Made by a program: the position numbers and the translations under genes. A stretch of 64,000 nt of DNA from Erythrobacteraceae bacterium (lineage in GTDB: Bacteria > Pseudomonadota > Alphaproteobacteria > Sphingomonadales > Sphingomonadaceae): assembly GCA_027489095.1 (NCBI GenBank), contig JAIYAL010000197.1:1-64000 (forward strand), read 5' to 3'. Positions 7,049-58,597 of the stretch are shown in pieces. Position 1 is the first letter of the stretch, and the number at the start of each line of letters is the position of its first letter. The notes below the pieces were generated by a model, which was given only the letters and a program-made list of their open reading frames with translations, made no database searches and was not told the origin of the DNA.

Positions 7049-7915
7049 ATGACCCGCGTCGGCTACGCCCGCGTCAGCACCATCGACCAGGATCTCGACA
7101 TCCAGGTTGCCCGGTTGAAGGCAGCGGGCTGTGAAATCCTCCGCTCCGAAACAGGCTCGGGCGCATCGCGCACTGGACGCACGGAGCTTGAGACGATCAT
7201 GCAGTTCCTGCGCGCCGATGACGAACTCGTCGTCCTGCGTCTCGATCGGCTCGGTCGCTCCACACGCGATGTTCTCAATCTGGTTCATGAACTCGACCAG
7301 AAGGGAGCCTCATTGCGGGTGCTTGAGCCGGAGGTGACGACGGCCGGAAGCATGGGGCGGATGGTGATCACCATTCTGGGCATGGTCGCGGACATGGAAC
7401 TGACGTTCATCAAGGACCGGCAGCGCGCCGGGATCGAGGCGGCGCGCGCCGAAGGCGTCTACAAAGGCCGGAAGAAAAACATCGATGACGATGAAATCCG
7501 ACGCCGGATCACCGCCGGCGCGAGCAAGGCCAGCGTCGCGCGCGACCTCAAGATCTCAAGAATGACCGTCTATCGGGCGCTTGACGTCATTCCTTCAAGG
7601 ATCGGGCTGCCGGAAAAGCCGCCTTCTGTCACCATCGCCCTGCATCTGACCATCGAGAACTTCAACAAGCATGGTCGTGGCAGAAAGCCCGCTCGCGAGC
7701 GCATTGAGGCGATGCTGGAGCGGGATTACCAGATGCAAAAGACCGGGAACTGCGATTACACGCTGACCGTCGCCTATGATCAGGGTGCCGATGGCGTCAG
7801 CCTCGATGATGAGATCGCATCTCTCCAGACAGAGATGTTCAACATCGCAGAGAGCTACAGGTGCTCGATCGAGACCGATGTTTACGAGATTGGAGGACAA
7901 GAGCGAGCCTGGTAG
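7049..7915 (+). CDS. tnpR: Serine resolvase (TnpR-like) with an extra ~95-aa C-terminal domain
   Basis: MTRVGYARVSTIDQDLDIQ...VLRLDRLGRSTRD...GRKKNIDDDEIRRRI then HTH SKASVARDLKISRMTVYRAL; additional C-terminal extension. Confidence 0.88.
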   Translation: MTRVGYARVSTIDQDLDIQVARLKAAGCEILRSETGSGASRTGRTELETIMQFLRADDELVVLRLDRLGRSTRDVLNLVHELDQKGASLRVLEPEVTTAGSMGRMVITILGMVADMELTFIKDRQRAGIEAARAEGVYKGRKKNIDDDEIRRRITAGASKASVARDLKISRMTVYRALDVIPSRIGLPEKPPSVTIALHLTIENFNKHGRGRKPARERIEAMLERDYQMQKTGNCDYTLTVAYDQGADGVSLDDEIASLQTEMFNIAESYRCSIETDVYEIGGQERAW

Positions 7916-27413: not shown

Positions 27414-28220
27414 TCAGCTCGCGTTCGCGCAGCGCGGCAAACTCGTCCTGAACCGGGGGTGTAAAGCGTGCCTGTCCATGATCTGGCGGACCAGATCGAT
27501 GCTGGTCTGAAGATTGTTCAAATCGATGCCTTTGGTTTCCGCATCAGACTTGCGCACTTGCGCTTCGACCAGTTCGGCTTGCTTCAGCACCAGCAGGGTT
27601 TCCGCGGCCAGCTTGTCGTTTTCAAGTCCGCGCGTGCGCAATCGATCGCGCAAGTGCGCCAGCGCATCGGCGGTCATGGCTCCTGCTGTATCGCGCAAGC
27701 TGGCCCCGGTCTTTACGTCGATCACCGCATCAAGCAGCGCGGTCATCGCCTCACGCAGCTTGCGCGATAGCTTGAGGCTGTCTTCCGGATCGCCTGCTGT
27801 CAGGCGATCCGCATGGGGCACGCTAATCGCGGTTTGCCCCTGTGCGACCTGAAGCTGCACCGCGATGAAGGTTTCGAGAATCAGGTCGGTTGCATCGAGC
27901 GCTTCGGGCGAAGTGAGGACTGTGGCAAGCCGGGCGACGCCGAGTACGGTGTAGGCCATTGGTTGGCCGTGAAAACCTCCGCGCCCGGTGTTTGACATCA
28001 CAGATTGTGATTTCAAAGCGTTTGCCTCCGCCTTGGTCAAACGAAAGCAATGCACTTCGCGGAACTTGCGCGGATTGCGCGCGACCGCCTGATTGACCAC
28101 GCGCGTTTCAACTCCGAACCGCGCCGCCACCTCGGCATCCAGCATAACCGGCTGCCCCCGCAGCACCAGCACGGCAGGCGCTTTCGGGATCACGGACTGT
28201 GATTTCAAATCATCGCTCAC
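27414..28220 (-). CDS. ORF6N-domain DNA-binding protein
   Basis: LRGQPVMLDAEVAARFGVETRVVNQAVARNPRKFREVHCFRLTKAEANALKSQSVMSN; probable GTG start overlapping the upstream stop (GTGA). Confidence 0.75.
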   Translation of the reverse strand: MSDDLKSQSVIPKAPAVLVLRGQPVMLDAEVAARFGVETRVVNQAVARNPRKFREVHCFRLTKAEANALKSQSVMSNTGRGGFHGQPMAYTVLGVARLATVLTSPEALDATDLILETFIAVQLQVAQGQTAISVPHADRLTAGDPEDSLKLSRKLREAMTALLDAVIDVKTGASLRDTAGAMTADALAHLRDRLRTRGLENDKLAAETLLVLKQAELVEAQVRKSDAETKGIDLNNLQTSIDLVRQIMDRHALHPRFRTSLPRCANAS

Positions 28221-31200: not shown

Positions 31201-31225
31201 GGGATTCGAAGAATGTGTCGCTCAT
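28217..31225 (-). CDS. Type III restriction (Res)-like helicase-nuclease, BPTD_3080-type
   Basis: Walker A [19 protein letters not shown], DEAH box [57 protein letters not shown]; C-terminal [12 protein letters not shown]...LVVEIKG nuclease motif. Confidence 0.82.
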   Translation of the reverse strand: [1002 protein letters not shown]

Positions 31226-32384: not shown

Positions 32385-33707
32385 TCAGGTCGCGGTGAGC
32401 ATACCCGCCAGTTCATCGTGCGCAAACTTGCCCAGCCACGGAACCACCTTGGCAGGATCGGCCAGATCGAGCGCGGCGATTGTCAGCCGTTCGCGGCCTC
32501 CGGCCATGCCGAACTGTTTGCGCACGGCGCTCCCCTGCCCCGGCGTGGCGGGATAGAGCAGCGTCAGCCGTTCGCATTCGTAAAGCCGGGCATAGACCAT
32601 CAGCTGATAGACATCGGACTGGCTGACGCCCTGCTTGCGGTTGTTGCCAGTGTTCAGCGGATCAGTGCCCAGCTTCTTCCACTTCGTATCGATGATCGCC
32701 AGCACGCGGCCATTCCGGCGCAGGAGAATATCCGGCTTGGTCTGAAACACCCCGGCGCGGCAATCTTCGCCTTCACGCCATTCGCCGAGGCAATAGGCCA
32801 GGCCGCCTTGGGTCGCCACTTCGATCCCGCTCCCGACAAGCGCCTGCCGCAGGCGCGCGGCGACATAGGCTTCGAACAGCGTGTTCATCGGGAACAGCAG
32901 CGTGATGCCTTCAGGCGCGGATGCGGCGGCGTGGACCCCCTGCCAATCGCGCCGCAGAAACAGTTTGGCGAGGGCAAACAGGCTGCGCCAGCGCGCGCTG
33001 GTCCGGTCGATCCGCACATCGCCCCAAGGCAGCCGCGCGGGGGGCACATCGGGGATATCGGCCAGCGCGTGCCGCAGTTCGCCAAGGCGGCGCTGCGTTT
33101 CGAAATGGCGGGCATGGCGCGCCAGCGCGACAACGCAGGCCTTCATCACGCGCATCAGCGGGGTATCGGCCTCAAGGCTGTCAAACCGGCAAGCGAGCCG
33201 GTCTGGCCGCACCGCGTTGACGGTGAACTGCCGCACGACATCGAGGCTGCCGCGCAGCGTCGGCAGATCATCCTCGCGGGTGACATAGCGACGCGGCAGG
33301 CCCCGGCGTACTTCGGCGAGGAGGCGGTCCGCAAACAGGCGGATCAGCACATCGAGGAGGCTCTCGTTCTGCCGCGCCAGCGTGGCAGCGCCGCCTGCCG
33401 ACAGACCCAGCCCGTGCGCCACATCGAGCATGTGGATGAGGCGGCTACGGACGGTGGCGGCCGTCTCAGCAGGGGCAGCGGGATCGACCTTGGGCAGGAT
33501 TTCAAGGCTGACACCCGGTGCCGCCAGCACGCCGACCACCTGCTTTGCGGTGAGGTGGCGGTGGTGATCGGACAGGATGTCGCCGCCTTCCGATCCGCCG
33601 CAAGGGTGCGCGCGCGCGGCAGCCAGCAGCGCATCGACCTGCGCGCGGGTGAAGCCCCCCTCCCCCACCGGGACCCGTCCCCATTCGTGGCACGCAAGGT
33701 GCTTCAT
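32385..33707 (-). CDS. mcrC: McrC-family subunit of modification-dependent restriction system
   Basis: LEILPKVD, NTLFEAYVAARL, PDILLRRNGRVLAIIDTKWKKL (PD-(D/E)XK). Confidence 0.85.
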   Translation of the reverse strand: MKHLACHEWGRVPVGEGGFTRAQVDALLAAARAHPCGGSEGGDILSDHHRHLTAKQVVGVLAAPGVSLEILPKVDPAAPAETAATVRSRLIHMLDVAHGLGLSAGGAATLARQNESLLDVLIRLFADRLLAEVRRGLPRRYVTREDDLPTLRGSLDVVRQFTVNAVRPDRLACRFDSLEADTPLMRVMKACVVALARHARHFETQRRLGELRHALADIPDVPPARLPWGDVRIDRTSARWRSLFALAKLFLRRDWQGVHAAASAPEGITLLFPMNTLFEAYVAARLRQALVGSGIEVATQGGLAYCLGEWREGEDCRAGVFQTKPDILLRRNGRVLAIIDTKWKKLGTDPLNTGNNRKQGVSQSDVYQLMVYARLYECERLTLLYPATPGQGSAVRKQFGMAGGRERLTIAALDLADPAKVVPWLGKFAHDELAGMLTAT

Positions 33708-36700
33708 CCGGCTTCGGGCTCGTCGCCTTCATCCTCGGCGCTTTCCGGCACTTGCACCGGGGCCGCGGCCTTGCCGAGCAGCACGTCATAGGCATTCTCG
33801 GGAAACGTCTCGCGCACCGACCAGCTCGGCTTGGGATCGAGCCCTTCAAGCCCGGGCGGCGGCGGCAACGCGGTTTCCTGAATGAAGCCGCGCCCCACCA
33901 CGGCGGCAATGCGGCTCCAGTCCTCGAAGAAATACTCCTGCAGAAGCGGGATGACCTTGTCGCGCATCACCGCATCGATCGCCGCGCGGCTGCCCGATCC
34001 CTCGCCCATGAAGAAGGCGTGGCCGATGCGGTGATCGCGGTCGAGCAGGTATTCGATGCGGCTGTTGATCACGGCCAGCACCCGACGCAGCGGCACGCCG
34101 TGGGCGTTTTCCGGCAGCAGATCAGGCTGCGGCGGCAACTCCCTGAACCGGAACCGCCGCCGCAGCGCCGTATCGAGCAAGGCGATGGACCGATCGGCGG
34201 TGTTCATCGTGCCGATGATGTGGAGATTGGCGGGCACCGAAAATGGCGTGCGGCTGTAGGGCAGGGTCAGCGACAGGCGCTCTTTCATGCCTTGCCGCTT
34301 GTCGGTTTCGATCAGCGTGATCAGTTCGCCGAACACCTTGGAAATGTTCGCGCGGTTGATTTCGTCGATCACCAGCACATGCTCTTCCGGGCTTTGGCGG
34401 GCGGCATCAGCCATATTGCGGAATACGCCAGGTTCCGGCTTCAGCGTGAAACCGCCACCGGGCAATGCGGAAGGCCGCATTCCTTCGACGAAGTCTTCAT
34501 AGGAAAAGTTCTGGTGGAACGTGACAAACCCCACCTGCCCGCTTTCGCGCAAACCGTCGTAGACCGCGCGCAGTTCCTGACGGCGCGCTTGATCCACGAG
34601 CAAGGGATCGTCCTCGGCCAGACCGAGACACAGCCGGACAGCTGCGCCCATCGTGGCATAGGTCTTGCCGGTGCCGGGCGGGCCGTAGAGGATCAGGTTG
34701 GTCGGATCACGCTTGATCGGATCCGGCACAGGTTCCTCTTCCTCGGCAAGGTCCTTCCAATTGGTCAGATTGGCAAGAAACCAGTCCTGATCCTGCGGCT
34801 CTGCGTTAAACGCAAACTGGATGAGACGCCGCGCCATTTCAGTCGTTGGAGATACCTCCCAGATCGTAGGCTGGTAGGTATAGTGATACCATTCGCGCAT
34901 CTCGAAGGGCGGATCCCACGCTACGGACACTTGCTCGCCATTGCCCGGGTTGGCCGTGATCGTGCCGGTAGCCTTGATCGCCATGCACGAAACGGCTCGC
35001 CCCTGATTGTTGAAAGGAAGCCCTTTCCTTCGCACATACGTGGATTTAACGGCGATTCGCTCACCCACTTCCATGCGCAAAACCTGCTCGCGGTTTCGGT
35101 CGCTAGGGTTGTCTATTTGCCAGATGTCCTCCGCCAGAAAGCGGTCAAGCTGCGCTTCAGTCCGACCATACATCGCCCCCACAAACCAGTATCGGCCAGG
35201 GCCGATTTCTGCGGTTGCATCTTCGTCCTCTGGAGCATTTCCGAAAATTCGGTCCCGCCAAACGGGATGGCTCAGAAACCAGGCAAAATCCTGTGGTTCG
35301 TTCTCCACGATGAAGCGGCGTAACCGATCTGCGAATTCACTTTTGCCCGGATTGTGCAGCCGCCAGACGGCATCGTTGTTGGTGTAGAAGTACCACGTTC
35401 GGGGTTCGATGGGCGGTGACCAATCAACCGACACGGAAAGGCCGTTGCCCGGGTTTTCCATCACGGTGCCGATGGCGCGGATGCGGTTTGCCGTGATCCG
35501 CTTGCCATTGTTGTCAAATGGCAGGTCCTGCGTCTGAGTGAAGAAATCCCGCAGAACGATCAAGTCACCGGGCTGCATCTCGCGGACCCTGCGATTGTTG
35601 TCGCTGGCGATGTCCGTCTGGAGGCTCCATTCGCCGCGCTCGATGAACCGGGCACAGCCATCAGCATCGCCCCATCGCGAGGTGACGAGCCAGATCGGGG
35701 TATCGTCTGCAGCACTCATCGCAAGGTTATGATGCAACTCATCAGGCCAATAGCCTTGCCGATCGCTGCCTGTGGGATGCCAATCCGCCACCACGGCCTT
35801 GTTGGCCAAGCCAGCCAAAAGCACTTTCACGTTTTGCGCATCTAGTGCGTACTTCTGCTCGAAAACCAAACCTAATGCGACGCCAGCGTTGACGTGAAAC
35901 TGAGGACTTGCACCGGAGATTACGCCAAGAACCGCGGTCGCGGATCTGGCATTCACCGAATGGCGGCCAAACCGGAATTGATAGGGTGGCAGATTGACTG
36001 CCCACCAATCCAGTCCTGCCGCATGAACGGCTTCAACTACTTTGCGAAATGCAGCCTTCCGCGCATCAGGCCACTGCTCGAACAACCGCGCAAAATTGGG
36101 GAAGCAGGTGAAATGGGATAGCACCGGGTCTACCACCGGGATGCCTCCACCGAGAGCAAACCGAAAAGTCGTTGCCGAGCTTTGGTTGGCCCCAAATCGT
36201 TCGGGCGGTGCCAGTCCGGCCATTTCCAAGAACTTCGTGCCCACCAGTGCCTGACAAATATTGGGCCAAGCGTCCTTCAGTCCGAGGGCATCATTAATCG
36301 TCCGGACATGGACATCGATGTAATCACGCCCTTCTTCCCGCGCAGGTTCGATGTACGTCTCAAGCACATAACGCCGAATTACGTCGGCGTCCCGATTGGA
36401 ATTGGCTTCGCCAGCAAGGAACCGCCCATATTGCGCCAGCCAGCTGCGCCAGTTCATCAAACGATTTTGCGGCTTCACGGATTGCGGCATCAGGATGCGG
36501 TAGTCTTGCCCGCCAGCCTGGGCGTCATCCAGCATCGCTGTCAGGCGCTGGCGTAGTGCGGCGAACTGGTCTTCGCTCCACGCTGCTTCCAGATCAGGCC
36601 ATGCAAAACCTAGGGGAACAAGCTTTTGCTCGATCGTGCGCACAGCATAAGCCCGGGAGTTGCGTCCCTCCTGGGTCTGTGCGCCCCCCGTTTCCAGCCA

Positions 36701-36724
36701 CTCCCGAAATTCCGCTTCCCGCAT
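33704..36724 (-). CDS. mcrB: McrB-family AAA+ GTPase/ATPase with two tandem EVE/PUA-like modules
   Basis: NLILYGPPGTGKTYATM, VLVIDEINRANISKVFGELITLIE, IIGTMNTADRSIALLDTALRRRFRF; ATGA overlap with mcrC. Confidence 0.87.
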   Translation of the reverse strand: MREAEFREWLETGGAQTQEGRNSRAYAVRTIEQKLVPLGFAWPDLEAAWSEDQFAALRQRLTAMLDDAQAGGQDYRILMPQSVKPQNRLMNWRSWLAQYGRFLAGEANSNRDADVIRRYVLETYIEPAREEGRDYIDVHVRTINDALGLKDAWPNICQALVGTKFLEMAGLAPPERFGANQSSATTFRFALGGGIPVVDPVLSHFTCFPNFARLFEQWPDARKAAFRKVVEAVHAAGLDWWAVNLPPYQFRFGRHSVNARSATAVLGVISGASPQFHVNAGVALGLVFEQKYALDAQNVKVLLAGLANKAVVADWHPTGSDRQGYWPDELHHNLAMSAADDTPIWLVTSRWGDADGCARFIERGEWSLQTDIASDNNRRVREMQPGDLIVLRDFFTQTQDLPFDNNGKRITANRIRAIGTVMENPGNGLSVSVDWSPPIEPRTWYFYTNNDAVWRLHNPGKSEFADRLRRFIVENEPQDFAWFLSHPVWRDRIFGNAPEDEDATAEIGPGRYWFVGAMYGRTEAQLDRFLAEDIWQIDNPSDRNREQVLRMEVGERIAVKSTYVRRKGLPFNNQGRAVSCMAIKATGTITANPGNGEQVSVAWDPPFEMREWYHYTYQPTIWEVSPTTEMARRLIQFAFNAEPQDQDWFLANLTNWKDLAEEEEPVPDPIKRDPTNLILYGPPGTGKTYATMGAAVRLCLGLAEDDPLLVDQARRQELRAVYDGLRESGQVGFVTFHQNFSYEDFVEGMRPSALPGGGFTLKPEPGVFRNMADAARQSPEEHVLVIDEINRANISKVFGELITLIETDKRQGMKERLSLTLPYSRTPFSVPANLHIIGTMNTADRSIALLDTALRRRFRFRELPPQPDLLPENAHGVPLRRVLAVINSRIEYLLDRDHRIGHAFFMGEGSGSRAAIDAVMRDKVIPLLQEYFFEDWSRIAAVVGRGFIQETALPPPPGLEGLDPKPSWSVRETFPENAYDVLLGKAAAPVQVPESAEDEGDEPEAG

Positions 36725-36946: not shown

Positions 36947-38152
36947 ATGTCTGAATCGAATGCAATCGTCAGCCAGATCGGTGATCTTGCCTCGGCAGGG
37001 GAGAAGATGATCGAGCGGCTGCGGCGCAAGGCCTTTCTGCCTGAAAGCCGCAAGGGGCTCAATGTACGGTTCGGAATTGCCGAGGCCGCGCAGCTGCTGG
37101 GGTGTTCGACCAACCGCATCCGCATGGCCGAGGATGATGGCCGCCTGCCCCTTCCCCCTGCGGGCGAAAACGGGCGCAGGCTGGGCTATACGGTGCAGGA
37201 AATGCTCAACATGCGCGAGGTGCTTGGCGCCTCCCCTGCCCGCGCGCCGATGGATGTGCCCGCGATCATCGCGGTGCAAAACTTCAAGGGCGGCGTGGGC
37301 AAATCCACCGTCACCACCCATCTGGCGCATTACTTCGCGGTGCAGGGATACCGCGTGCTGGTGGTCGACTGCGACAGCCAGGCGACGACGACCACGCTGT
37401 TCGGCTTCAACCCGCATTTCAACATCGCGCGCGAGGAAACGCTCTACCCCTACCTCTCGATCGACCCGACCCAGACCGACCTGCTCTATGCGGTGAAGCC
37501 GACGCCCTGGCCGAATGTGGATCTGATCCCTTCGAATCTGGAACTGTTCGACGTGGAGTATGAACTGGCGGCCTCCGGCTCGGACGGGCAATCGGTGCTG
37601 GCGGCGCGGTTCCGCAAGCTCAAGCAGGGGCTCGCCGATCTGGCGCGCGATTATGATGTGGTGATCCTCGATCCGCCGCCAGCGCTCGGCACGATCAGCC
37701 TTGCGGTAATGCAGGCAGCCAATGCGCTGCTGGTGCCGCTGGCGGCGACCACGCCGGATTTCTGCTCCACCGTGCAGTTCCTCTCGATGATGGATCAGGT
37801 GATCGCGCAGCTGATCGCGGCCGGGATCGAGGTGGATTACTCGTTCGTGCGGCTGATCTGCTCCAAGTTCGATGGCAACGATCCCAGCCACGCGATGGTG
37901 CGCTCGATCATGGAGCAGACCTTCGGCCCGGCCCTGCTGCCGGTGCCGATCCTCGAAAGCGCGGAAATCAGCCATGCGGCCATGCGGATGATGACGGTGT
38001 ACGAACTGGAGAAAGCCATCGGAACGCCAAAGACGCACAAGCGCTGCAAGGCCAACCTTGATGAGGCGCTGGGCCAGATCGAGCAACTGGTGCGCACCGG
38101 ATGGGGCCGCATCGCCCCCGCGCGCGAAGAGGATGTGCTCCATGCCGCATGA
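36947..38152 (+). CDS. parA: Plasmid partition ATPase ParA/RepA-type with MerR-like N-terminus
   Basis: QNFKGGVGKSTVTTHLAHYFAVQGYRVLVVDCDSQA deviant Walker A; VVILDPPPALG. Confidence 0.92.
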   Translation: MSESNAIVSQIGDLASAGEKMIERLRRKAFLPESRKGLNVRFGIAEAAQLLGCSTNRIRMAEDDGRLPLPPAGENGRRLGYTVQEMLNMREVLGASPARAPMDVPAIIAVQNFKGGVGKSTVTTHLAHYFAVQGYRVLVVDCDSQATTTTLFGFNPHFNIAREETLYPYLSIDPTQTDLLYAVKPTPWPNVDLIPSNLELFDVEYELAASGSDGQSVLAARFRKLKQGLADLARDYDVVILDPPPALGTISLAVMQAANALLVPLAATTPDFCSTVQFLSMMDQVIAQLIAAGIEVDYSFVRLICSKFDGNDPSHAMVRSIMEQTFGPALLPVPILESAEISHAAMRMMTVYELEKAIGTPKTHKRCKANLDEALGQIEQLVRTGWGRIAPAREEDVLHAA

Positions 38153-38234
38153 CGGGGCTTTCCTACAGGATGATGTTCTGCATATGTTCTCAACCTTCTT
38201 TCTGCCTAGCCCATTTTTTTCGCGGGATTGAACC

Positions 38235-39317
38235 ATGGCACGCAAGCAATCCGATTATCTCGCCGCACTTTTGTCGGATGACGAGCCGGCCGAGACCAGA
38301 TCAGCGGGTGCCGAACCGGTTTCGGCACCAGCAGCGGCGGCGGCTCCGGCGGAGCGCGTGCGCGGGGGCACGCTGCTGGGCCGCGAAAACGCGCTGGCCC
38401 GCGTGGCGAGCGGCGAAGTGCGGCAGGTGACGCAGTTGCTGCTCGATCCGGCGCGGGTGCGGCCGTGGGCGGGCAATGCCAGGTCCTATGCGCATCTGTC
38501 TCAGGAAAGCTGCGCCGAACTGATCGATTCGATCATTGCCGAAGGCGGCCAGAAAGTGCCCGCCATCGTGCGCCGGATCCAGGGTGATCCCGCGCATGAT
38601 TACGAAGTGATCGCGGGCACGCGGCGGCACTGGGCGGTGAGCTGGCTGCGCGCGCATTCCTACCCGGACATGCAGTTCCTGGCGCAAGTGGCGCAGATCG
38701 ATGACGAAGCCGCCTTCCGCCTCGCCGATATCGAGAACCGCGCGCGCAAGGATGTGTCCGACCTCGAACGCGCGCGCAATTATGCGCAGGCGCTGCACGA
38801 TCACTACGGCGGACACCTGACCCGGATGGCCGAGCGGCTCAAGCTTTCAAAGGGCTGGCTGTCCAAGATGCTCAAGGTAGCGGCGCTGCCCGATGCGGTG
38901 ATTGCCGCGTTTGCCAGCCCGGCGGATGTGGCGCTGAAACCCGCCTATGCGCTGGCACAGGCGCTCGACGACCGCACGAAGGCTGCCGTGATCCTGGGGG
39001 AAGCGCGCGCCATCGCACAGCATCAGAACGTCCGCCGCGCAGGCGGAGAGGCCCCCTTCCCCGCCGCCGATGTGCTGAGCCGCCTGCTCGCCGCGCCGCA
39101 TGGCCAGTCTGGTCAGGGCAAGGCTGGGCAGAAGGAACCCGTGCGGACATATGCCGGAGCCATGAACCGCCCGGCGGTGACGGTGCGCACCGTGAACCGG
39201 CAGGGCGTGACGCTGCAACTGCACGCCGGGTCGGGCCTTGATGCGCAGGGCCTTGTCGAGCTGGTGGCCGCTGCGCTGAAGGACCTGGAGGATCAGGGGC
39301 AGGGAGTGCTGCGCTGA
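38235..39317 (+). CDS. parB: ParB-family partition protein
   Basis: LLDPARVRPWAGNARSY, IAGTRRHWAVSWLR, ENRARKDVSDLERARNYAQAL, HTH LTRMAERLKLSKGWLSKMLKVAALP. Confidence 0.92.
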   Translation: MARKQSDYLAALLSDDEPAETRSAGAEPVSAPAAAAAPAERVRGGTLLGRENALARVASGEVRQVTQLLLDPARVRPWAGNARSYAHLSQESCAELIDSIIAEGGQKVPAIVRRIQGDPAHDYEVIAGTRRHWAVSWLRAHSYPDMQFLAQVAQIDDEAAFRLADIENRARKDVSDLERARNYAQALHDHYGGHLTRMAERLKLSKGWLSKMLKVAALPDAVIAAFASPADVALKPAYALAQALDDRTKAAVILGEARAIAQHQNVRRAGGEAPFPAADVLSRLLAAPHGQSGQGKAGQKEPVRTYAGAMNRPAVTVRTVNRQGVTLQLHAGSGLDAQGLVELVAAALKDLEDQGQGVLR

Positions 39318-39325
39318 TGCCCGGA

Positions 39326-39343
39326 TGTTTCCCCGGGGAAACA
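39326..39343. promoter_or_regulatory. parS: Candidate parS centromere site 1
   Basis: Perfect 18-bp palindrome TGTTTCCCCGGGGAAACA between parB and repA. Confidence 0.8.
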
Positions 39344-39381
39344 CGCCGCGCGCCGTCCCCAGCACGTCGCGGAAGCACGCG

Positions 39382-40599
39382 ATGAACCGGGCGAAAAGCC
39401 GTGCTGGCAAAGCGGCGGTGGGCGATCAGTTCGATCTGTTCCTGCCCTATATCGCCGATCTGCCGATGCGCGATCAGCGCGAGATGATGGAGCGCCCGTT
39501 CTTCAGCCTGGCCAAATCGCGGCGGGTGAAGCCGATTGATTACACCAGCCCCGATGGCAAGCTGTGGGTCCACGTTTCGGCCAGCCCCGAATATGGCATG
39601 GCCACGATCTGGGATGCCGACATTCTGATCTATTGCGCCAGCGTGCTGGCCGACATGGTTCGACGCGGGGTCAACGATGTGCCGCGCAAGCTGCATCTGA
39701 TGCCCTATGACCTCCTGCGCGCCATCGGCAGGCCGCCCACGGGCCGCGCCTACGAGCTGCTGGCCCAGTCGCTCGACCGGCTCGTGGCGACCACGATCAA
39801 GACCAACATCCGCGCTGAAAACAGGCGCGAGGCCACGTTTAGCTGGCTTGATGGATGGACCCAGCTGGTCGATGAACGGACCGAGCGGTCACGCGGCATG
39901 ACCATCGAGCTTTCGAACTGGTTCTGGGAAGGCGTCATGATGCAGGGCGGGGTGCTCGCCATCGACCGGGCTTATTTCGACATCACCGGCGGACGCGAAC
40001 GCTGGCTCTACAAAGTGGCGCGCAAGCACGCGGGCGGGGCAGGGGAGGGCGGCTTTGCCATCTCGGTGCCGGTCCTGTTCGAGAAATCGGGCGCAGAAGG
40101 GGACTACCGCCGCTTCAAGTTCGAGATCATCAAGCTGGCGGAAAAAGACGCGCTGCCGGGCTACGGCCTGAGCATCGAAGCGGCGAAGGGCGGCGGCGAA
40201 CCTTTGCTGCGGATGCGGCGCTTCGACGGCAAGGACGGGGCGGGGAAGGGCCTGCCGGAATCCAGCGCGCCCGCACACGATGTTTCCCCGGGGAAACATG
40301 CCGCGGCCCCGGCTGCACCGCAGATCGAGGCGGCACCGGAACCGACGTTCGACGCCCGCGCGCTGATCCGCTCGACCGTGGCAGGCCTCAGTGACGCCGC
40401 CACGCGCGGCTTCATGACCGACGAGACCATCGACCACTTGCGCGAAACCTGCCCCGGTTGGGATCTCCACGCCCTCCACGCCGAGTTCGAACGCTGGGTT
40501 GCCAGTGATCCCGCGCGCACCCCCGCCAACTGGCAGCGCGCCTTTACCGGATGGGTCAAGCGCCACCACGAGAAGCACCGGCACAACTTGCGCGGGTGA
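39382..40599 (+). CDS. repA: Plasmid replication initiator (RepA, RPA/pfam10134-type)
   Basis: QFDLFLPYIADLPMRDQREMMERPFFSLAKSRRVKPIDYTSPDGKLWVHV...LMPYDLLRAIGRPPTGRAYELLAQSLDRLVATTI. Confidence 0.85.
   Translation: MNRAKSRAGKAAVGDQFDLFLPYIADLPMRDQREMMERPFFSLAKSRRVKPIDYTSPDGKLWVHVSASPEYGMATIWDADILIYCASVLADMVRRGVNDVPRKLHLMPYDLLRAIGRPPTGRAYELLAQSLDRLVATTIKTNIRAENRREATFSWLDGWTQLVDERTERSRGMTIELSNWFWEGVMMQGGVLAIDRAYFDITGGRERWLYKVARKHAGGAGEGGFAISVPVLFEKSGAEGDYRRFKFEIIKLAEKDALPGYGLSIEAAKGGGEPLLRMRRFDGKDGAGKGLPESSAPAHDVSPGKHAAAPAAPQIEAAPEPTFDARALIRSTVAGLSDAATRGFMTDETIDHLRETCPGWDLHALHAEFERWVASDPARTPANWQRAFTGWVKRHHEKHRHNLRG
40281..40298. promoter_or_regulatory. parS: Candidate parS centromere site 2, inside the repA coding region
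   Basis: Same 18-bp palindrome TGTTTCCCCGGGGAAACA, encoding VSPGKH in RepA. Confidence 0.78.
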
Positions 40600-41149: not shown

Positions 41150-42646
41150 ATGACCAGACCGCGCCGCTTCGGCCTCTCCAAATCGCGCCTGACCATGTTC
41201 GAGCAGTGTCCGAAGCGATTGTGGCTGGCTGTCCATCGACCGGAGGAGGGCGACGCCGGAGAGGCGGCAGAGGCCCGGTTCGCGATCGGGCACGCAGTGG
41301 GGGCGGCGGCCTGCGCCCTGCATCCTGATGGCGTGATGATCGCGGCGGATCCCGATCTGGCCGCCGCACTTGCCGAAACCCGCCGCCTGATCGGCGAAGG
41401 CCACCCCGGCCCGCTGTTCGAGGCAACGTTCGAACATGACGGCGTGCTGGTCCGCGTCGATGTGATGCGCCGCGCCGATGATGCGCGCTGGCACGTGGCC
41501 GAGGTCAAAAGCTCGACCCGGGCGAGAGACTATCACCTCGGTGATCTGGCGACGCAGGTCTGGGTGATCGAGGAGGCAGGCATCACATTAGCCAGCGCCG
41601 CGATCCGGCATGTCGATACGCGCTTCGTGCTGCAACGCGAAGGTCATTATGCCGGGCTGTTTGCCGATGCAGACATGCTGGCACCGGCGCGGGAGGCAGC
41701 GCGCGGGCGGCCGGCGCTGGTCGCGGCGGCCAAAGCGGTGCTGGCGGGGGAGGAGCCGGATATCGCGATGGGCGATCAGTGTTCCGATCCGTTCGACTGC
41801 GAATTTGCCGGGTACTGCGCGCAGGCTCTCCCGTCGGGGCCAGAGTGGCCGGTGACCATATTGCCAAACGGCGGGGGCAAGAAGTGGGCGTCCAAAGGCG
41901 TGACCGATCTGCTCGACCTTGCCGAAAAAGACCTCTCGGCAAAGCATGCACGTGTGTTTGCCGCCACGCGCAGCGGCAAGCCTTACCATGACCGCGCAGG
42001 CGCAAAGGCGGCCATAGCGCAGTGGACGTTCCCGCGCGCCTGGCTCGATTTCGAGACGATTGCCCCGGCGCTGCCGCTCTGGGTCGGCACGCGGCCCTAT
42101 CAACAGGTCCCGTTCCAGTTCTCGCTGCATCTGGAAGCGGCGGATGGCACCATCACGCACCATGCATTTCTGCAAACGGACGGCCAAGACCCACGCCGCC
42201 CCTGTGCCGAGGCGCTCGCCGCGATGATCCCGGTAGAGGCCACGGTGATCGCCTATAACGCCGGGTTCGAGCGCGGCGTGCTGCGCAATCTGGCGCGCGA
42301 TGTGCCGGAACTGGCCGAGACCATGCTTTCGATCGAAGCGCGCATGGTGGACCTGCTGCCGATCACACGCGAGACTTGGTATCATCAGGACCAACGCGGC
42401 AGTTGGTCGATCAAGGCGGTGCTGCCGACGATTGCGGCAGGCCTCGATTATGATGGATTGGAAGTGAAGGACGGTGGCAATGCGCAGGCGGCTTTCCTGG
42501 AGGCCATCGATCCAGCAACGTCGCCCGAACGGCGCTGGGCGCTGAACGAAGCGCTGCTGGCCTATTGCGAGCGGGACACCTGGGCGATGGTGGCCGTTGC
42601 GCGCAAGCTGGCGGGGGAGGGGGGACTGATAGCAATGTTAGGATAG
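41150..42646 (+). CDS. DUF2779-family protein (nuclease-like N-terminus, exonuclease-like C-terminus)
   Basis: LSKSRLTMFEQCPKRLWLAVHRPE...VAEVKSSTRARDYHLGDLATQVWV; WLDFETIAPALPLWVGTRPYQQVPFQFSLH; AYNAGFERGVLRNLA. Confidence 0.8.
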   Translation: MTRPRRFGLSKSRLTMFEQCPKRLWLAVHRPEEGDAGEAAEARFAIGHAVGAAACALHPDGVMIAADPDLAAALAETRRLIGEGHPGPLFEATFEHDGVLVRVDVMRRADDARWHVAEVKSSTRARDYHLGDLATQVWVIEEAGITLASAAIRHVDTRFVLQREGHYAGLFADADMLAPAREAARGRPALVAAAKAVLAGEEPDIAMGDQCSDPFDCEFAGYCAQALPSGPEWPVTILPNGGGKKWASKGVTDLLDLAEKDLSAKHARVFAATRSGKPYHDRAGAKAAIAQWTFPRAWLDFETIAPALPLWVGTRPYQQVPFQFSLHLEAADGTITHHAFLQTDGQDPRRPCAEALAAMIPVEATVIAYNAGFERGVLRNLARDVPELAETMLSIEARMVDLLPITRETWYHQDQRGSWSIKAVLPTIAAGLDYDGLEVKDGGNAQAAFLEAIDPATSPERRWALNEALLAYCERDTWAMVAVARKLAGEGGLIAMLG

Positions 42647-42681
42647 TTTACAAAGAAGCGATAAACTGCCATAAACTTGCT

Positions 42682-43863
42682 ATGGATCGCCGCCGAAATC
42701 CCTTTGCGCCGGGCGCTGGAACGCCGCCGCCGGAACTTGCCGGCCGCGGTCCGCTCATCGAAGATGCCGCCGTGGCACTGGATCGGATCCGGGCGGGGCG
42801 CGCCGCGCGCAGCCTGATCTTCTATGGTCTGCGCGGCGTGGGCAAGACGGTGCTGCTCACCACAATCCGCAACCAGGCCGAGGCCGAGGGGCTGGTGGTG
42901 GTGGCGATGGAAGCGCCGGAGAACCGCTCCCTGCCCGCGATGCTGGTGCCTGCGCTGCGGGCGGCGCTGCTGAAGATGGACCGGATGAAGCAAGCCGGGC
43001 GCAAGATCCGCCGCGCGCTTTCCGCTCTTGCCGGTTTCGTCAAACCGCGCGTGTCCTATGAAGGGTTCGAGATCGCGCTGGAATTCGATGTCGAGCCGGG
43101 GCTGGCCGATAGCGGGGATCTGGAAGCGGACCTTGCCGATCTGATCCGAGCGGCAGGGGAGGCGGCGCAGGAATCCGGCACGGCCTTCGTGCTCGCCATC
43201 GATGAACTGCAGTATGTGCCCGAGGAAGAACTCGCCGCGCTGATAAGCGCGCTCCACCGCGCGGGCCAGTTGCAATTGCCGATCACGCTGGTGGGGGCAG
43301 GGCTGCCGCAGCTGCTAGGCCAGATGGGCCGGGCAAAGTCCTATGCCGAGCGTTTGTTCGCCTTCGTGCCGCTTGGCCCGCTCGACTATGCGGCGGCGGC
43401 CGATGCGATCCGCCTGCCGTTGGAGCACGAGGACGCCGCCATCACCGACGCGGCGCTGAACGCCATTTACGAGCAGACCCAAGGCTATCCCTATTTCCTA
43501 CAGGAATGGGGCAAGCACAGCTGGGACCTTGCCGAAGCATCGCCGATTAACGAACGCGACGTGGCCGATGCTGGCGTGGCCGCGCTGGCCGAACTCGACG
43601 CCAGCTTCTTCCGTGTGCGCTTCGACCGGCTGAGCCCTGCCGAAAAGCGTTATATGCGCGGCATGGCCGAATTGGGGGAAGGCCCGCACCGCTCGGGCGA
43701 TATTGCCGAAGCGCTGGGGATGAAAGTGAACGGTGTTGCGCCCACACGCAACAGCCTGATCCGCAAGGGAATGCTCTACAGCCCCGCCCATGGCGACACC
43801 GCCTTCACGGTGCCGCTGTTCGGGGCCTTCATGCGCCGTGCGATGCCAGCTGGGGCCGCTTAG
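42682..43863 (+). CDS. AAA ATPase (ATP-binding protein, Orc1/Cdc6- or archaeal AAA-like)
   Basis: FYGLRGVGKTVLLTTIR, FVLAIDELQYVPEEELAALISALHRA, winged-helix C-terminus. Confidence 0.82.
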   Translation: MDRRRNPFAPGAGTPPPELAGRGPLIEDAAVALDRIRAGRAARSLIFYGLRGVGKTVLLTTIRNQAEAEGLVVVAMEAPENRSLPAMLVPALRAALLKMDRMKQAGRKIRRALSALAGFVKPRVSYEGFEIALEFDVEPGLADSGDLEADLADLIRAAGEAAQESGTAFVLAIDELQYVPEEELAALISALHRAGQLQLPITLVGAGLPQLLGQMGRAKSYAERLFAFVPLGPLDYAAAADAIRLPLEHEDAAITDAALNAIYEQTQGYPYFLQEWGKHSWDLAEASPINERDVADAGVAALAELDASFFRVRFDRLSPAEKRYMRGMAELGEGPHRSGDIAEALGMKVNGVAPTRNSLIRKGMLYSPAHGDTAFTVPLFGAFMRRAMPAGAA

Positions 43864-43865
43864 AG

Positions 43866-43960
43866 CCGATATCCACAATCGGCTGAAACGCGATCGTGAA
43901 GGGCGGAATGCCAGTTTCGTCGTAGTCGCCTGGTTCCAGCGCGGACGGCACCAGAGTCAC
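43866..43960 (-). pseudogene. 5' fragment of a second EAL-domain gene
   Basis: GTG start overlapping the preceding EAL stop; VTLVPSALEPGDYDETGIPPFTIAFQPIVDIG then homology ends at the ATPase gene border. Confidence 0.65.
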
Positions 43961-45082
43961 TGCGGAATGCGTGCGGAGGTGGCCGGCACATCGAGTTGCG
44001 GATGACCCAGCAGGCCGCCCTGAAACAGGTCGACTCCTTCCGACAGTAGCCAGTCAAATTCACCGCGGGTTTCGACATGCTTGGCAATCAGATCGATCCC
44101 GAGATCATCGCAAGTCTGGATCAGACCACGCACGATGGCCTGCTTGGCTCCGTTGGTATCAGCATCCCGCACAAGCTTTGCGTTGAGAGCAATCGCATTG
44201 GGCTGGCTCATTTCCATCTGGTTTAGCCCCGACCGGCCAGCACCAAAGTGATCGAGGCAGATCCTCAGCCCGTTTTCCTTGCAATCCTGAACGATCGTGA
44301 TGATGGAACTGAGATCGCCGTTCAGATAGTCCTGATTGAGTTCGAGGGTAATGATGCGGCTGTCAATGTTCTGCGCATTGGCCAGATCAATGATCGATTG
44401 CATGGTGGCAATCGCATCGTCGGTGCTGGCAGGTCGGACATTGATATTGATGCCCTAGGCTGTGCCCGGCCGCGCGGAAATCAGCATGGCACGTTGCCGG
44501 GCGACAGCCTCGACGTTGGCCAATACGTCTGCGGCAAAATCCGCTGCCGTCATTTCCCGCTGCATGCGGATATCCCAAGCAATGGCTTCATGTGACCAGA
44601 TCGTGCCCTGAGACGCCGATATGATCGGTTGAAAAGCGATCCCGGTTTCTGCCGAGGGCGCGTGCGCCGACGGGGCGGCGACCGTCGGTGCCGACCCTGG
44701 CGCAGGTCGCGAGGCCTAGCTGCGCCACCGCCCGTCCTTGAATGCGTTCAGCAATTTTTGCGCGCGACCCGGCACCAGCGATTGTGCAGTGACGGTGCCT
44801 GTCAGAAAATCATTCACGCCGTCGAGGTCATCGAGTTCGGCCGCTGTGATATCGGCGAAACCCATCGACCAGTCGCCAAACGCACGGCGCGGAATCGATT
44901 CGCGGATGATCGTAGTGATGTTGCCATGTCGCGGATCGGCGGAAATAACTGCGAACAGGGCATCGATATCGCTATCCTGCCCTTCGATGACTTGCAGAAA
45001 ACTGCCCTCGATGTGCAGCAGGCGTCACCTCAAGGTTTGTGCGCCAGACAACGATTTGCCGGACATTGTGGGAACATAGGCG

Positions 45083-45643
45083 TCAGGCGGCGACGCGGAG
45101 ATACTGGTATAGGGTTTCACGGCTGATCCCCAGGTCGCGGGCGATTGTGGCCTTACGCTCGCCGGCGGCAATGCGGCGGAGCAGCTCGGCGACCTTATCG
45201 TCAGAGAGGGACCGTTTCCGTCCGCGATAAGCGCCGCGTTGCCTGGCAAGCGCAATTCCTTCGCGCTGCCGTTCCCGGATCAAGGCACGCTCAAATTCGG
45301 CGAACGCGCCCATGACCGAAAGCATCAGATTGGCCATGGGGGAATCCTCGCCGGAAAAGGCAAGGCTCTCCTTCATGAACTCGATGCGGATGTCTCTCTT
45401 CGTGAGAGACTGGACCAGCTTGCGCAGATCGTCGAGATTGCGCGCCAGTCGATCCATGCTGTGCACCACGACGGTATCGCCCTCGCGGGCGAAGGCGAGC
45501 ATGGCGTCGAGCTGGGGCCGATTGACGTCCTTGCCCGATGCTTTGTCGGTAAAGATCCGGTCGAGCGACTGACCTTCCAACTGGCGATCGACATTCTGAT
45601 CGAATGTGCTCACCCGGACGTAACCGATCCTCTGGCCTTTCAT
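45083..45643 (-). CDS. tnpR: Tn3 resolvase
   Basis: MKGQRIGYVRVSTFDQNVDRQLEG...VHSMDRLARNLDDL...GRKRSLSDDKVAELLRRIAAGERKATIARDLGISRETLYQYL. Confidence 0.93.
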   Translation of the reverse strand: MKGQRIGYVRVSTFDQNVDRQLEGQSLDRIFTDKASGKDVNRPQLDAMLAFAREGDTVVVHSMDRLARNLDDLRKLVQSLTKRDIRIEFMKESLAFSGEDSPMANLMLSVMGAFAEFERALIRERQREGIALARQRGAYRGRKRSLSDDKVAELLRRIAAGERKATIARDLGISRETLYQYLRVAA

Positions 45644-45815
45644 CGCCGCCTCCGGTCAATTTGTCAGGTTGAAATCTATGACACCGCGCAACAGACGTCA
45701 ACAAATGCGTTCACCAACTCTAATCTGACAGAATTGGAAGCACCGCCCTGACGTCCGGTTAGGCTATACTCCAGATTGACGCTAGCCTGCTGCTCAGGAG
45801 TCGGATGGAGGCAGC
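45644..45815. promoter_or_regulatory. Divergent tnpR/tnpA promoter region, probable res site
   Basis: Intergenic region between divergent tnp genes with TGTCA/TGACA half-sites. Confidence 0.5.
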
Positions 45816-48785
45816 ATGGCGCGGCGGCGATTATTGACCGGGGAAGAACGGCGGCGCCTGTTCGATGCTCCCCATGACGAAACCGCGATCGTCAGCCACT
45901 ATACTCTTGCCGTCAGGGATCTTGACCTGATCGGTCGCCGCTATCGACCCGCCAATCGCCTCGGCCTGGCTGCGCAGATCGCATTGATGCGGCACCCTGG
46001 CTTCGGTTTGCAGCCCGACATCGGCGTGCCAAATGCGATCCTCCACTACCTTGCTGCCCAGATATTCGTCGATGCGGAGGCTTTCGGCGACTATGGCCAG
46101 CGCGCCCAAACGCGCAACGATCACGCTGACATTGCCGCACAGCACCTCGGGTTACGCCCCTTCCGGCGAGGGGATATCCCACTCGCGCTCGACCTGGCCG
46201 CGCGAGCCGCCGAACAGACCGACCGGGGCGAGCCCATTGTTCGCGCGTTGATGGAGGGATTGAAGCAGGAGCACTTCATTCTTCCATCGGCCGACACGAT
46301 CGAACGGGCCGGTCTCGCCGGCAGGGCGCGCGCCCGCAAAGCCGCGGCAGCAACCATCATCGAAAGCCTGGGTCATGCCGAACTGACCCGGATCGACGAT
46401 TTGATCGTCAACAGCAGCGACTTCGGCATGACGCCGCTGGCTTGGCTGCGCAATTTCGAGGAGGCGCCGACGACGGCAAATATCAACGGCCTGCTGGAAC
46501 GGCTGCGCTATGCGCGCGGGGTCGGCATCGATCCGGCGATCGGCGCCAAAATTCCCGATTTCCGGTTCGCGCAATTCATGCGTGAAGGTAGCGCGGCACC
46601 GGCGTTTCTGCTTTCCGACTATAGCCTCAACAGGCGGCGCGCGACCCTGGTCGCGGCGGTGATCGACCTCGAGGCCCGGCTCGCCGATGCGGCGATCCAG
46701 ATGTTCGACAGGCTTGTCGGCGGCCTGTTCACACGCGCGCGGCGCAGCCGTGAAAGACGCTATCAGGACAGCATCCGCTCGGTCGGCGAACTCATGCGGT
46801 TGTTCGGCGCCACGATCGCGGCGCTGGGAGAGGCGGTCGAGCATGGCGGCAATCCGATGGAACTGATCGACGAGGCTGTGGGCTGGCACAGGCTGGTCGC
46901 GGTGAAGGCGCAGGTCGATGCGCTGGCTGATCTGGCGGGGGAAGATGCCCTTGTCGCGGCAACAGGGCGTTATGCGACCTTGCGCCGGTTCAGCCCAGCT
47001 TTCCTCGATGCATTCACGTTCAAGGCGACGGGAAGCGGGGTGCAACTGGTCAAGGCGATTGATGTCATCCGCGACGCCAATGCGCGCAAAACGCGCAACC
47101 TGCCCGATGGCGTTCCCCTGCCATTCGCCAACCGGCAGTGGAAGCGCCTCATCACCGAAGGCGGCCAGATTGACCGTCGGCGCTATGAAACAGCCGTCAT
47201 GGCCACCCTGCGCGATCGGTTGCGCGCCGGCGACATATGGGTGGAGGGAACCCGGAACTATCGCCGCTTCGACACCTATCTGTTGAGCCGGCGCGATGCC
47301 GGGAAGGTGGCCGAAAACCTTGCATTCCCAAACGATGCTGCGGCCTATCTGGCCGATCGCGCGAGAATGCTCGATTGGCGGCTGCGCCGTTTCGCCAAGG
47401 AACTCAAGGCGAACCGGCTTGCAGGCGTGGCGCTCGAGCGCAATCGGCTCAAGCTGCAACCGATGCTGGCAATCACGCCGCCCGAGGCAGAGGCTCTCGA
47501 TCGCAGGCTCGACGCGCTGTTACCGCGCGTGCGGATCACCGAACTCCTGGTCGAGGTAGCCGAGCGCACCGGCTTCCTGAGCGCGTTCCGCGATCTTCGG
47601 TCCGGCAAAGAGCATGACAACCCGCATGCGATCCTTGCGGCCATTCTGGCCGATGGATCGAATCTGGGTCTGGAACGGATGGCCAATGCCAGCGACGGGG
47701 TAAGCTACGCCCAGCTTGCCTGGACGCACAATTGGTATCTGTCGCCCGAAAACTACCAGGCTGCGCTGGCCATGATCGTTGCCGCGCACCATGATTTGCC
47801 GTTCACGCATCATTGGGGCGCCGGAACCAGTTCATCCTCCGATGGGCAGTTCTTCCGCTCAGGCCGCAGCCGATCCGCAGCTGCCGACATCAACGCCAAA
47901 TATGGCGGCGAGCCCGGCCTGAAGATCTACTCCCACTTGTCCGATCATTTTGCCTCCTTCGGGTCGCGGATCATGTCGGCCACCGCCGGAGAGGCGCCTT
48001 ATGTGCTCGACGGCCTCATGTTGGGCGCCGGCGCGCTGCCGCTGCATGAACATTACACCGATACCGGCGGCGCGACTGACCATGTCTTTGCTCTCTGCCA
48101 TCTTCTCGGCTTCCGCTTCGTACCCCGGTTGCGCGACATCGCCGACCGGAAACTCGGCTCGATCGCTCCACCCTCGACCTACAAGGGCCTCGAAAGCCTC
48201 ATGGGGCGAACGGTCAAGACCGCCGCGATCGAAGCCGACTGGGAGGACATCGTCAGGATTGTCGCCACCATCAAGGAGGGAGCCGTCGCGCCGTCTGCGA
48301 TCCTGCGCAAGCTCGCCGCCTACAAGCGCCAGAACAGGCTGGATTTCGCCCTGGCGGAACTTGGTCGCATCGAACGGACGCTGTTCACGCTCGACTGGCT
48401 TGAACAGCCCGACTTGCGGCGGGCCTGCCAGGCCGGCCTCAACAAGGGCGAGGCACGTCATACCCTCGCCGCCGCCATCTACACCAACCGGCAGGGCCGG
48501 TTCACGGATCGTTCGATCGAGAATCAGGAATATCGGGCATCGGGCCTGAACCTGCTGATCGCGGCGATAGCCTATTGGAACACCATCTATATGGACAGGG
48601 CCGCCCAGCACATCAAAGCATCCGGCGTCAGCTTCGACGACGCGCTCCTCGCTCACCTTTCCCCCATGGGCTGGGCGCATATCAGCTTGACGGGAGATTA
48701 TCTCTGGCACCGGGCAAAACCGCTCTCCCCCGGCGAATTCCGCGCTCTCAACGATCCCATGGCTCGCCTCAAACTCGTGGCATAG
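45816..48785 (+). CDS. tnpA: Tn3 family transposase
   Basis: 989 aa; full-length Tn3 TnpA pattern (RRRLLTGEERRRLFDAPHDET...SSSDGQFFRSG...YTDTGGATDHVFALCHLLGFRFVPRLRDIADRKL...LSPMGWAHISLTGDYLW). Confidence 0.95.
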   Translation: MARRRLLTGEERRRLFDAPHDETAIVSHYTLAVRDLDLIGRRYRPANRLGLAAQIALMRHPGFGLQPDIGVPNAILHYLAAQIFVDAEAFGDYGQRAQTRNDHADIAAQHLGLRPFRRGDIPLALDLAARAAEQTDRGEPIVRALMEGLKQEHFILPSADTIERAGLAGRARARKAAAATIIESLGHAELTRIDDLIVNSSDFGMTPLAWLRNFEEAPTTANINGLLERLRYARGVGIDPAIGAKIPDFRFAQFMREGSAAPAFLLSDYSLNRRRATLVAAVIDLEARLADAAIQMFDRLVGGLFTRARRSRERRYQDSIRSVGELMRLFGATIAALGEAVEHGGNPMELIDEAVGWHRLVAVKAQVDALADLAGEDALVAATGRYATLRRFSPAFLDAFTFKATGSGVQLVKAIDVIRDANARKTRNLPDGVPLPFANRQWKRLITEGGQIDRRRYETAVMATLRDRLRAGDIWVEGTRNYRRFDTYLLSRRDAGKVAENLAFPNDAAAYLADRARMLDWRLRRFAKELKANRLAGVALERNRLKLQPMLAITPPEAEALDRRLDALLPRVRITELLVEVAERTGFLSAFRDLRSGKEHDNPHAILAAILADGSNLGLERMANASDGVSYAQLAWTHNWYLSPENYQAALAMIVAAHHDLPFTHHWGAGTSSSSDGQFFRSGRSRSAAADINAKYGGEPGLKIYSHLSDHFASFGSRIMSATAGEAPYVLDGLMLGAGALPLHEHYTDTGGATDHVFALCHLLGFRFVPRLRDIADRKLGSIAPPSTYKGLESLMGRTVKTAAIEADWEDIVRIVATIKEGAVAPSAILRKLAAYKRQNRLDFALAELGRIERTLFTLDWLEQPDLRRACQAGLNKGEARHTLAAAIYTNRQGRFTDRSIENQEYRASGLNLLIAAIAYWNTIYMDRAAQHIKASGVSFDDALLAHLSPMGWAHISLTGDYLWHRAKPLSPGEFRALNDPMARLKLVA

Positions 48786-49214
48786 CCAATGTTCTCATGA
48801 TGTCCGCCAAATCGTTGTCTGGCGCACAAACCTTGAGGTGACGCCCAGCAGCATGCCGGTGATCTCGCGCGCGACATTGTTGCGGCGCGAAACGCCCAGC
48901 AGGTCGATCAGCCGTTCGGCATCAAACACGACTTTGGCGGTGCTGCTATAGATCAGGTGTATCAGGCGGGACATCGCAGGTCGGACTTTCTCATTTACTA
49001 TCTTCGGCCCAACTCTACATTCTTATAAGCTAGAAATCGGAAATTACCGGACATTTCAGGACAGCTCTGCAGCGTAGGCGATAACCAAACCAGGTACGAG
49101 GACCTACCATCGTGAAGCATCGGGAGCAACTTGCGGGCTAGAGCCTGCGCCCCGTTTGATGCCCATGCGTGGGCGTGATCGCAACAACCGGGTCGGGGAT
49201 TAACCCCCACCCGG

Positions 49215-49345
49215 TTTGCCGACTGAACTGACGTCCGCAGACGAGCGCGCTCGACACGAAGTCAGGGCTCCAGCGCTGGTTCGGCCCCTGAGCGATCGCA
49301 ATGGGCGCCCGCGTGCCCAAGGCCCGCTTGCGACCGCTGCCCGGC
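49215..49345 (-). pseudogene. Remnant of an IS3-family transposase (OrfB)
   Basis: RKRALGTRAPIAIAQGPNQRWSPDFVSSALVCGRQF resembles the OrfB segment before the first catalytic Asp; flanking sequence unrelated. Confidence 0.65.
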
Positions 49346-57020: not shown

Positions 57021-57713
57021 ATGACCCATGGCGTTGCCCCTCCCGATCCGCTGAATCCTCTGGCGCTGAAGGAGAAGCAGCGGCGGTTGCGTGACGGTTT
57101 TCCGACGCCGTTGTCGCTGCGGGTCCATCGTGCGCTGTCCTGGCTGATCCGCGCCGATGTGGAGGCCGATGATCAGGATGTGCGCTTCCTGCTCTCGTGG
57201 ATCGGGTTCAATGCGGCCTATGCGTCGGACGTTTCGCTGGCGCTGGGGGCCGAAAGCCAGCGCCAGCGTGACTTGTTCATGCGGTTTTTCACGACGCTGG
57301 TGGGGTTCGACAATCGGCACCGGATCTATGGCCTGGTGTGGCAGCGGTTTGCGCAGGAAATCCGCGTGCTGCTGGACAATCGCCACGTCTTCGCGCCGTT
57401 CTGGCTGCACCACAATGGCAGCGCGGGCTTTGCCGACTGGCGCGACCGTATGGAGCGCGAGCGGGTGGCCATCAACAGCGCGCTGGCGCGGCATGACACC
57501 GCCACCTTGCTCTCGATCGTGTTCGGGCGGCTCTATGTGCTGCGCAACCAGATCGTGCACGGTGGGGCCACGTGGAACAGCAGCGTCAACCGCGCGCAAG
57601 TGCGCGACGGCGCAGCCATCCTGGGCTGCCTGCTGCCATTGTTCATCGACCTGATGATGGACAATCCGGACCATGAATGGCCCATGCCGCAATATCCCGT
57701 TGTGGAAGACTGA
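57021..57713 (+). CDS. HEPN-domain (ApeA-like/RnaseLS-like) protein
   Basis: VFGRLYVLRNQIVHGGATWNSSVNR = Rx4H HEPN motif; helical context. Confidence 0.72.
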   Translation: MTHGVAPPDPLNPLALKEKQRRLRDGFPTPLSLRVHRALSWLIRADVEADDQDVRFLLSWIGFNAAYASDVSLALGAESQRQRDLFMRFFTTLVGFDNRHRIYGLVWQRFAQEIRVLLDNRHVFAPFWLHHNGSAGFADWRDRMERERVAINSALARHDTATLLSIVFGRLYVLRNQIVHGGATWNSSVNRAQVRDGAAILGCLLPLFIDLMMDNPDHEWPMPQYPVVED

Positions 57714-58597
57714 TGGCCGGGGAGGATTGGACCACACCCGAGATCGAACAGATCGTGGTGGATTACTTTGCCATGCTGGACGATGACATTGCCGAGCGGC
57801 CATACAACAAGGCGGAGCACAACCGGGCGTTGCAGGCGCGGATCGGGCGCAGCAAGGGGTCCATCGAATTCAAGCACCAGAACATCAGTGCCGTCCTGCT
57901 CGGCTTCGGGCAGCCGTGGATTCCCGGATACAAGCCGGCGATGAACTTTCAGGCAGCGCTCGTGGACGGGGTGCGTCGCTGGCTGGATGCCAATCCGCAA
58001 TGGCTTGCGCCGCGCGACTGGTGGACCGCTTCAGCGGTGGCAGAGGCGGGCGGGGCCGAAGCGAACGGGGCAGGGGGCGGCCATGCTCTGCGCCGCGATA
58101 TGCCGACGCTGTGGATCGGCCCGCCGCCGACGCATCGCAATGAACCGCCGCCGGTCGATCCGCAGGTGCTGGCCGCGTTCGGGCGGAAGTGGGACGTGGC
58201 CGCGCGCGATGCTCGCAACCGCGCACTGGGGAAGGCGGGCGAGGCGCTGGTGCTGCACCATGAACGCGCAGGGTTGGTGGCTGCCGGGTGCGGCGCGCTC
58301 GCGGATAAGGTGCGCTGGACATCCGAGCAGGATGGCGACGGCTACGGCTATGACATCCTGAGCTTCGAGGCCGATGGGCGCGAGCGGCTGATCGAAGTGA
58401 AGACAACCAACGGGTGGGAGCGCACACCGTTTCACATCACCGCCAACGAGGTGGCCGTGGCCGACGCGCGGCGGGATTCGTGGCATCTGGTGCGCTTGTG
58501 GAACTTTGCGCGCGCACCGCGGGCCTTTGCGCTGCGTCCACCATTGGCCGACCACGCCGAGCTGACACCAACCAGCTTTCTCGCCGCGCTGCGCTAG
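57713..58597 (+). CDS. DUF3883-domain (PD-(D/E)XK-like) nuclease
   Basis: RALGKAGEALVLHHERAGL...WTSEQDGDGYGYDILSFEADGRERLIEVKTTNG; TGATG overlap with the HEPN gene stop. Confidence 0.8.
   Translation: MAGEDWTTPEIEQIVVDYFAMLDDDIAERPYNKAEHNRALQARIGRSKGSIEFKHQNISAVLLGFGQPWIPGYKPAMNFQAALVDGVRRWLDANPQWLAPRDWWTASAVAEAGGAEANGAGGGHALRRDMPTLWIGPPPTHRNEPPPVDPQVLAAFGRKWDVAARDARNRALGKAGEALVLHHERAGLVAAGCGALADKVRWTSEQDGDGYGYDILSFEADGRERLIEVKTTNGWERTPFHITANEVAVADARRDSWHLVRLWNFARAPRAFALRPPLADHAELTPTSFLAALR

Follow-up and report, generated by a model that had tools for sequence, protein, structure and literature searches.

A Tn3-family unit transposon interrupts a minus-strand BLUF gene of the window, the 64,000-nucleotide stretch of DNA analysed here. 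Very probably this was an ordinary insertion into a plasmid-borne gene standing beside EAL genes that had already decayed, an event that removed a blue-light sensor but no working light-controlled phosphodiesterase (PDE). The insertion itself is a clean, ordinary Tn3 case; the loss of a light-controlled c-di-GMP phosphodiesterase, which the first-pass annotation had considered probable for the host, is not supported. In the sequence of events that we propose, a Tn3-family unit of the type found on sphingomonad plasmids would have jumped into the BLUF gene, duplicating 5 bp and destroying it, by what is known of the family presumably through replicative transposition followed by TnpR resolution, and the EAL genes downstream would have been broken or inactive before it arrived.

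The element spans 3,825 bp (45021..48845) and combines a Tn3-type transposase, ~38-bp terminal inverted repeats and a 5-bp target duplication, the marks of the family. Its terminal repeats (45021..45058, plus strand; 48808..48845, minus strand) are perfect over 38 bp and 92% identical over 61 nt when extended, the duplicated CAGCA stands on both sides (45016..45020 and 48846..48850), and tnpA and tnpR are both intact; the insertion looks recent, as it had at first reading. The transposase gene tnpA (45816..48785, plus strand) encodes 989 aa that score 948 bits against NCBIfam NF033527 (cut-off 500), the mark of a Tn3-type DDE transposase, and that also match Pfam PF01526, while tnpR (45083..45643, minus strand) encodes a serine resolvase of 186 aa with the Pfam Resolvase and HTH_7 domains. 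The region between them (45644..45815) is presumed from its position to hold the res site and promoters. This TnpA is the only copy of that transposase found in the genome; a second Tn3-family transposase at 3997-6906 (plus strand), which with the resolvase downstream occupies 3997-7915, is 25% identical to it. Very similar units of equal length (89-90% identity) occur on Sphingobium fuliginis plasmids, and the transposon is therefore of a known sphingomonad kind; a literature search on this sphingomonad Tn3 unit returned nothing useful. The copy on plasmid p2 of S. fuliginis KK22 (NZ_CP060038), a unit of ~3.83 kb, shares ~90% nucleotide identity end to end and identical 38-bp ends, but it lies at another insertion site with other flanks, where no matching 5-bp duplication was seen.

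Insertion took place at codons 41-43 of the BLUF gene. The 5' part of the gene (48851..48974, minus strand, with its ATG at 48974) holds codons 1 to ~41, including Tyr9 and Asn33, and the 3' part (44719..45020, minus strand) holds Gln51, Trp92 and Met94 and ends in ...FKDGRWRS. Because these last three residues all lie beyond the insertion, the N-terminal remnant, left with Tyr9 and Asn33 only, should not make a BLUF photocycle or work as a sensor, judging from the BLUF family at large. Removal of 45021-48845 and one CAGCA copy joins the flanks in frame (...REITGMLL followed by HIEGSFLQVIEG...) and, as had been claimed, restores a full BLUF domain: the joined sequence covers positions 1-92 of 92 in Pfam BLUF PF04940 at 97.2 bits, contains all of the flavin-site residues (Y9, N33, Q51, W92 and M94), and as read amounts to 142 aa ended by TAG.

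Beyond this TAG the same frame passes into a domain that matches Pfam EAL at 109.9 bits, so the spliced sequence does agree with both profiles. The joined frame comprises 396 codons including its end stop, a TGA at 43957-43959, and runs without indels over 395 codons even though catalytic residues have been lost. What stands of the earlier description is that BLUF and EAL share one frame; what does not is that this frame is continuously open, or perfectly reconstructable: two amber stops within it had been missed. The first is codon 143 at the end of the BLUF frame (44716-44718, minus strand), either a native stop or a nonsense codon, and the second is codon 230 within the EAL domain (44455-44457, minus strand); the stretch of frame from one to the other is open. 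From codon 143 to codon 194, a position already past the EAL motif, the joined frame contains no ATG, GTG or TTG. The full EAL half could not be made at the present locus even without the transposon, and the rejoining of two flanks in frame does not prove that a working fusion enzyme has been lost.

The EAL stretch itself, EAL1 (43957..44715, minus strand), is degenerate; an Ala/Pro/Ser-rich linker leads into it, and the domain has no start codon ahead of it. A comparison with 57 related EAL sequences shows that the active-site residues E, N, E, D and Q are retained in EAL1, whereas the second D of DDFG has become H, the K and D of IKxD have become A and N, and the E of AEGVE has become K. In the phosphodiesterase PA3825 the second metal is coordinated by the second D of DDFG and the D of IKxD, with a contact from the E when calcium is bound (PMC5301497). 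Since all three of these residues are replaced in EAL1, its second metal site is gone, and on sequence grounds it is very unlikely to have acted as a normal PDE. Its end branch in the EAL tree measures 2.62 against a median of 0.41, a length which indicates that the divergence is largely old. In relative-rate counts against the closest BLUF relative found, from Azohydromonas aeria (L048, 53-54% identity), the BLUF domains have changed evenly (9 unique changes in the window and 11 in Azohydromonas, p 0.82), and the EAL domains have not, with 58 against 15 unique changes using G917 as outgroup (p 4e-7) and 72 against 12 using Variovorax (p 1e-11); with G979, an outgroup that is itself degenerate, the counts of 32 and 20 do not differ significantly (p 0.13). 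A fast EAL1 joined to a BLUF of even rate implies that EAL1 lost or changed its function while BLUF was still constrained. EAL1 was thus probably dead before the Tn3 insertion and BLUF was hit later, although the order of the insertion and the nonsense mutations is not directly dated; by then EAL1 would have been catalytically dead and fast-evolving, without a start codon, interrupted by an internal TAG and with its second metal site destroyed.

A second EAL gene, EAL2, is represented by a 5' fragment (43865..43960, minus strand) whose GTG overlaps the EAL1 stop as GTGA at 43957-43960 and which opens (M)TLVPSALEPGDYDETGIPPFTIAFQPIVDIGS. Its start is 73% identical over 15 aa to that of the EAL gene in an Acidobacteriia bin (L047; E 1.4e-4 in a window-only tblastn), and the 35-aa fragment, a very short piece, has no Pfam hit. 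EAL-like sequence continues to about 43865, ~32 codons in, and is followed by the 3' end of an ATPase gene (42565-43863, with its stop TAG at 43861-43863). Because EAL2 stops where the 3' end of the ATPase gene sets in, the operon is cut at its far end too, and in the proposed sequence of events EAL2 would likewise have been broken before the transposon arrived.

Whether the TAG after BLUF is native bears on what kind of locus the transposon entered. We think it probably the native stop of a BLUF gene that stood alone, one of two genes, and regard a nonsense codon in a former BLUF-EAL fusion as a possibility of lower standing. On both views what the transposon took away was a blue-light sensor and no functioning light-controlled PDE. 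In A. aeria an EAL gene directly follows the BLUF gene, as it does here, but the BLUF protein has 163 aa, the EAL gene has its own ATG in another frame, both are open, and its EAL keeps all catalytic residues. BLUF and EAL overlap as ATGA in the Acidobacteriia bin, are separate in G917 (L086), and have a stop between them in G979 (L083). In the BLUF tree the interrupted gene pairs with Azohydromonas, outside a clade of fused proteins from Variovorax, Pantoea and other members of the phylum, with SH-aLRT 94 both for the pairing and for the fused clade, just below the 95 mark. This pairing and the separate genes of the relatives favour a native stop. On the other side, the linker 3' of the first TAG (25 codons, Ala/Pro/Ser-rich, GC3 0.76) is in frame, lacks a start codon and resembles the linker of the fused Variovorax protein L111, which favours an ancestral fusion.

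Among the genomes searched no close orthologue was found, so neither TAG can be directly read as native or mutated. In searches that were not exhaustive, no uninterrupted orthologue was found at E<=1e-30 in 401 genomes of the family, and none that is close in ~385 genomes of the class, 121 of relatives and ~399 of the phylum; a GTDB contig scan, also not exhaustive, gave no BLUF beyond ~54% identity. In a synteny test for an empty site across 80 congeners, the neighbouring SbcC was absent (E<=1e-60), and the ATPase gene was present in 3, which left no empty site to compare. Against plasmids the window flanks match only through the transposon and a scrap of an IS3-family transposase gene (49225-49340, of which ~110 bp are 75-83% identical to IS3 copies on plasmids).

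The region 36947-40599 encodes ParA, ParB and a RepA initiator and identifies the contig as a plasmid. It looks rich in defence genes, with a Type III restriction Res-like protein (28217-31225, minus strand), an AAA_5/restriction-like ATPase (33704-36724, minus strand) and, as a candidate for defence, a PDC-S36/NO VEIN protein (57677-58597, plus strand). A DruE3-like helicase of Druantia type III (22900-27336, minus strand; PADLOC 1415 bits) covers model positions 552-2051 of 2055, with the first ~550 missing, and near it lies a 1872-aa AAA protein (14906-20524). Five other BLUF genes are present in the genome, so BLUF-based blue-light sensing need not have been lost; a tandem pair of BLUF genes lies elsewhere in the same genome (L001/L002, G000:C51, 476-1226). 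The plasmid location, these five genes and the separate genes of the nearest members of the BLUF lineage all speak against the supposed loss of a light-controlled phosphodiesterase.

The strongest competitor to an insertion beside decayed, separate EAL genes, though unlikely, is that the locus once encoded a fused BLUF-pseudoEAL, a non-enzymatic, light-controlled protein-protein partner like E. coli BluF, later killed by the two ambers and by Tn3. The startless linker and the 395 codons without indels are what such a history would leave, and the D to H (DHFG) and D to N (IxxN) changes also occur in five gammaproteobacterial BluF-like fused proteins (L085, L087, L088, L091 and L094). The interrupted BLUF, however, lies outside the fused clade, a grouping of EAL1 with the clade of degenerate DHFG BluF proteins is rejected by a narrow margin (p-AU 0.045), and no MerR/BluR-like gene, the neighbour expected of a BluF-type anti-repressor, was found among the adjacent ORFs scanned. 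With EAL1 outside that clade, any likeness to the BluF substitutions would be convergent. A doubtful further possibility is a plasmid-borne operon of BLUF, pseudo-EAL and EAL in which the second metal site of the first EAL was lost independently, by way of BluF-type substitutions (DHFG, IxxN); if true, a non-enzymatic EAL partner under light control would have arisen a second time, and only a broken remnant of it is seen here. Far less credible is a functional BLUF-EAL fusion, a light-regulated PDE intact until the transposon arrived: BLUF and EAL do share a frame and match Pfam, and fused homologues are known (BlrP1, Pantoea, Variovorax), but the sequence as it stands contradicts this view: the frame holds two TAGs, the second metal site and the Lys of EAL1 are lost, its branch is accelerated, and the closest relative of the BLUF is encoded by a gene of its own. 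Amber suppression, by which one long protein would be read through two stops that are both TAG with an open frame between them, can practically be dismissed: the ATPase gene next door ends in TAG as an ordinary stop, the frame is in any case broken by the transposon, and an EAL made in this way would still be without its catalytic residues.

The preferred reading, a BLUF gene struck beside EAL genes already in decay, adds one more example of an EAL partner decaying while its BLUF sensor is kept. In G979 a BLUF gene has a partly degenerate, shortened companion EAL (L083, 137-1252), and in the Acidobacteriia bin the companion EAL is cut after its first ~40 residues (L047, 4001-4608); together with EAL1, these suggest that such decay is possibly recurrent. 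Two known systems invite comparison with the interrupted locus. Klebsiella pneumoniae BlrP1 (PDB 3gfx), the best solved relative of EAL1, likewise combines BLUF and EAL, but it is a fused, active, light-regulated PDE, a type expected to have one open frame through both domains and the EAL metal and catalytic residues, whereas the EAL here lacks D, K, D and E and lies in a frame with stops. E. coli BluF (YcgF) also has BLUF beside a degenerate EAL, with DHFG and IxxN substitutions in gammaproteobacterial homologues; it lacks PDE activity and works as an antagonist of BluR (PMC3509220), but it is fused and intact, and the EAL described here falls outside its clade.
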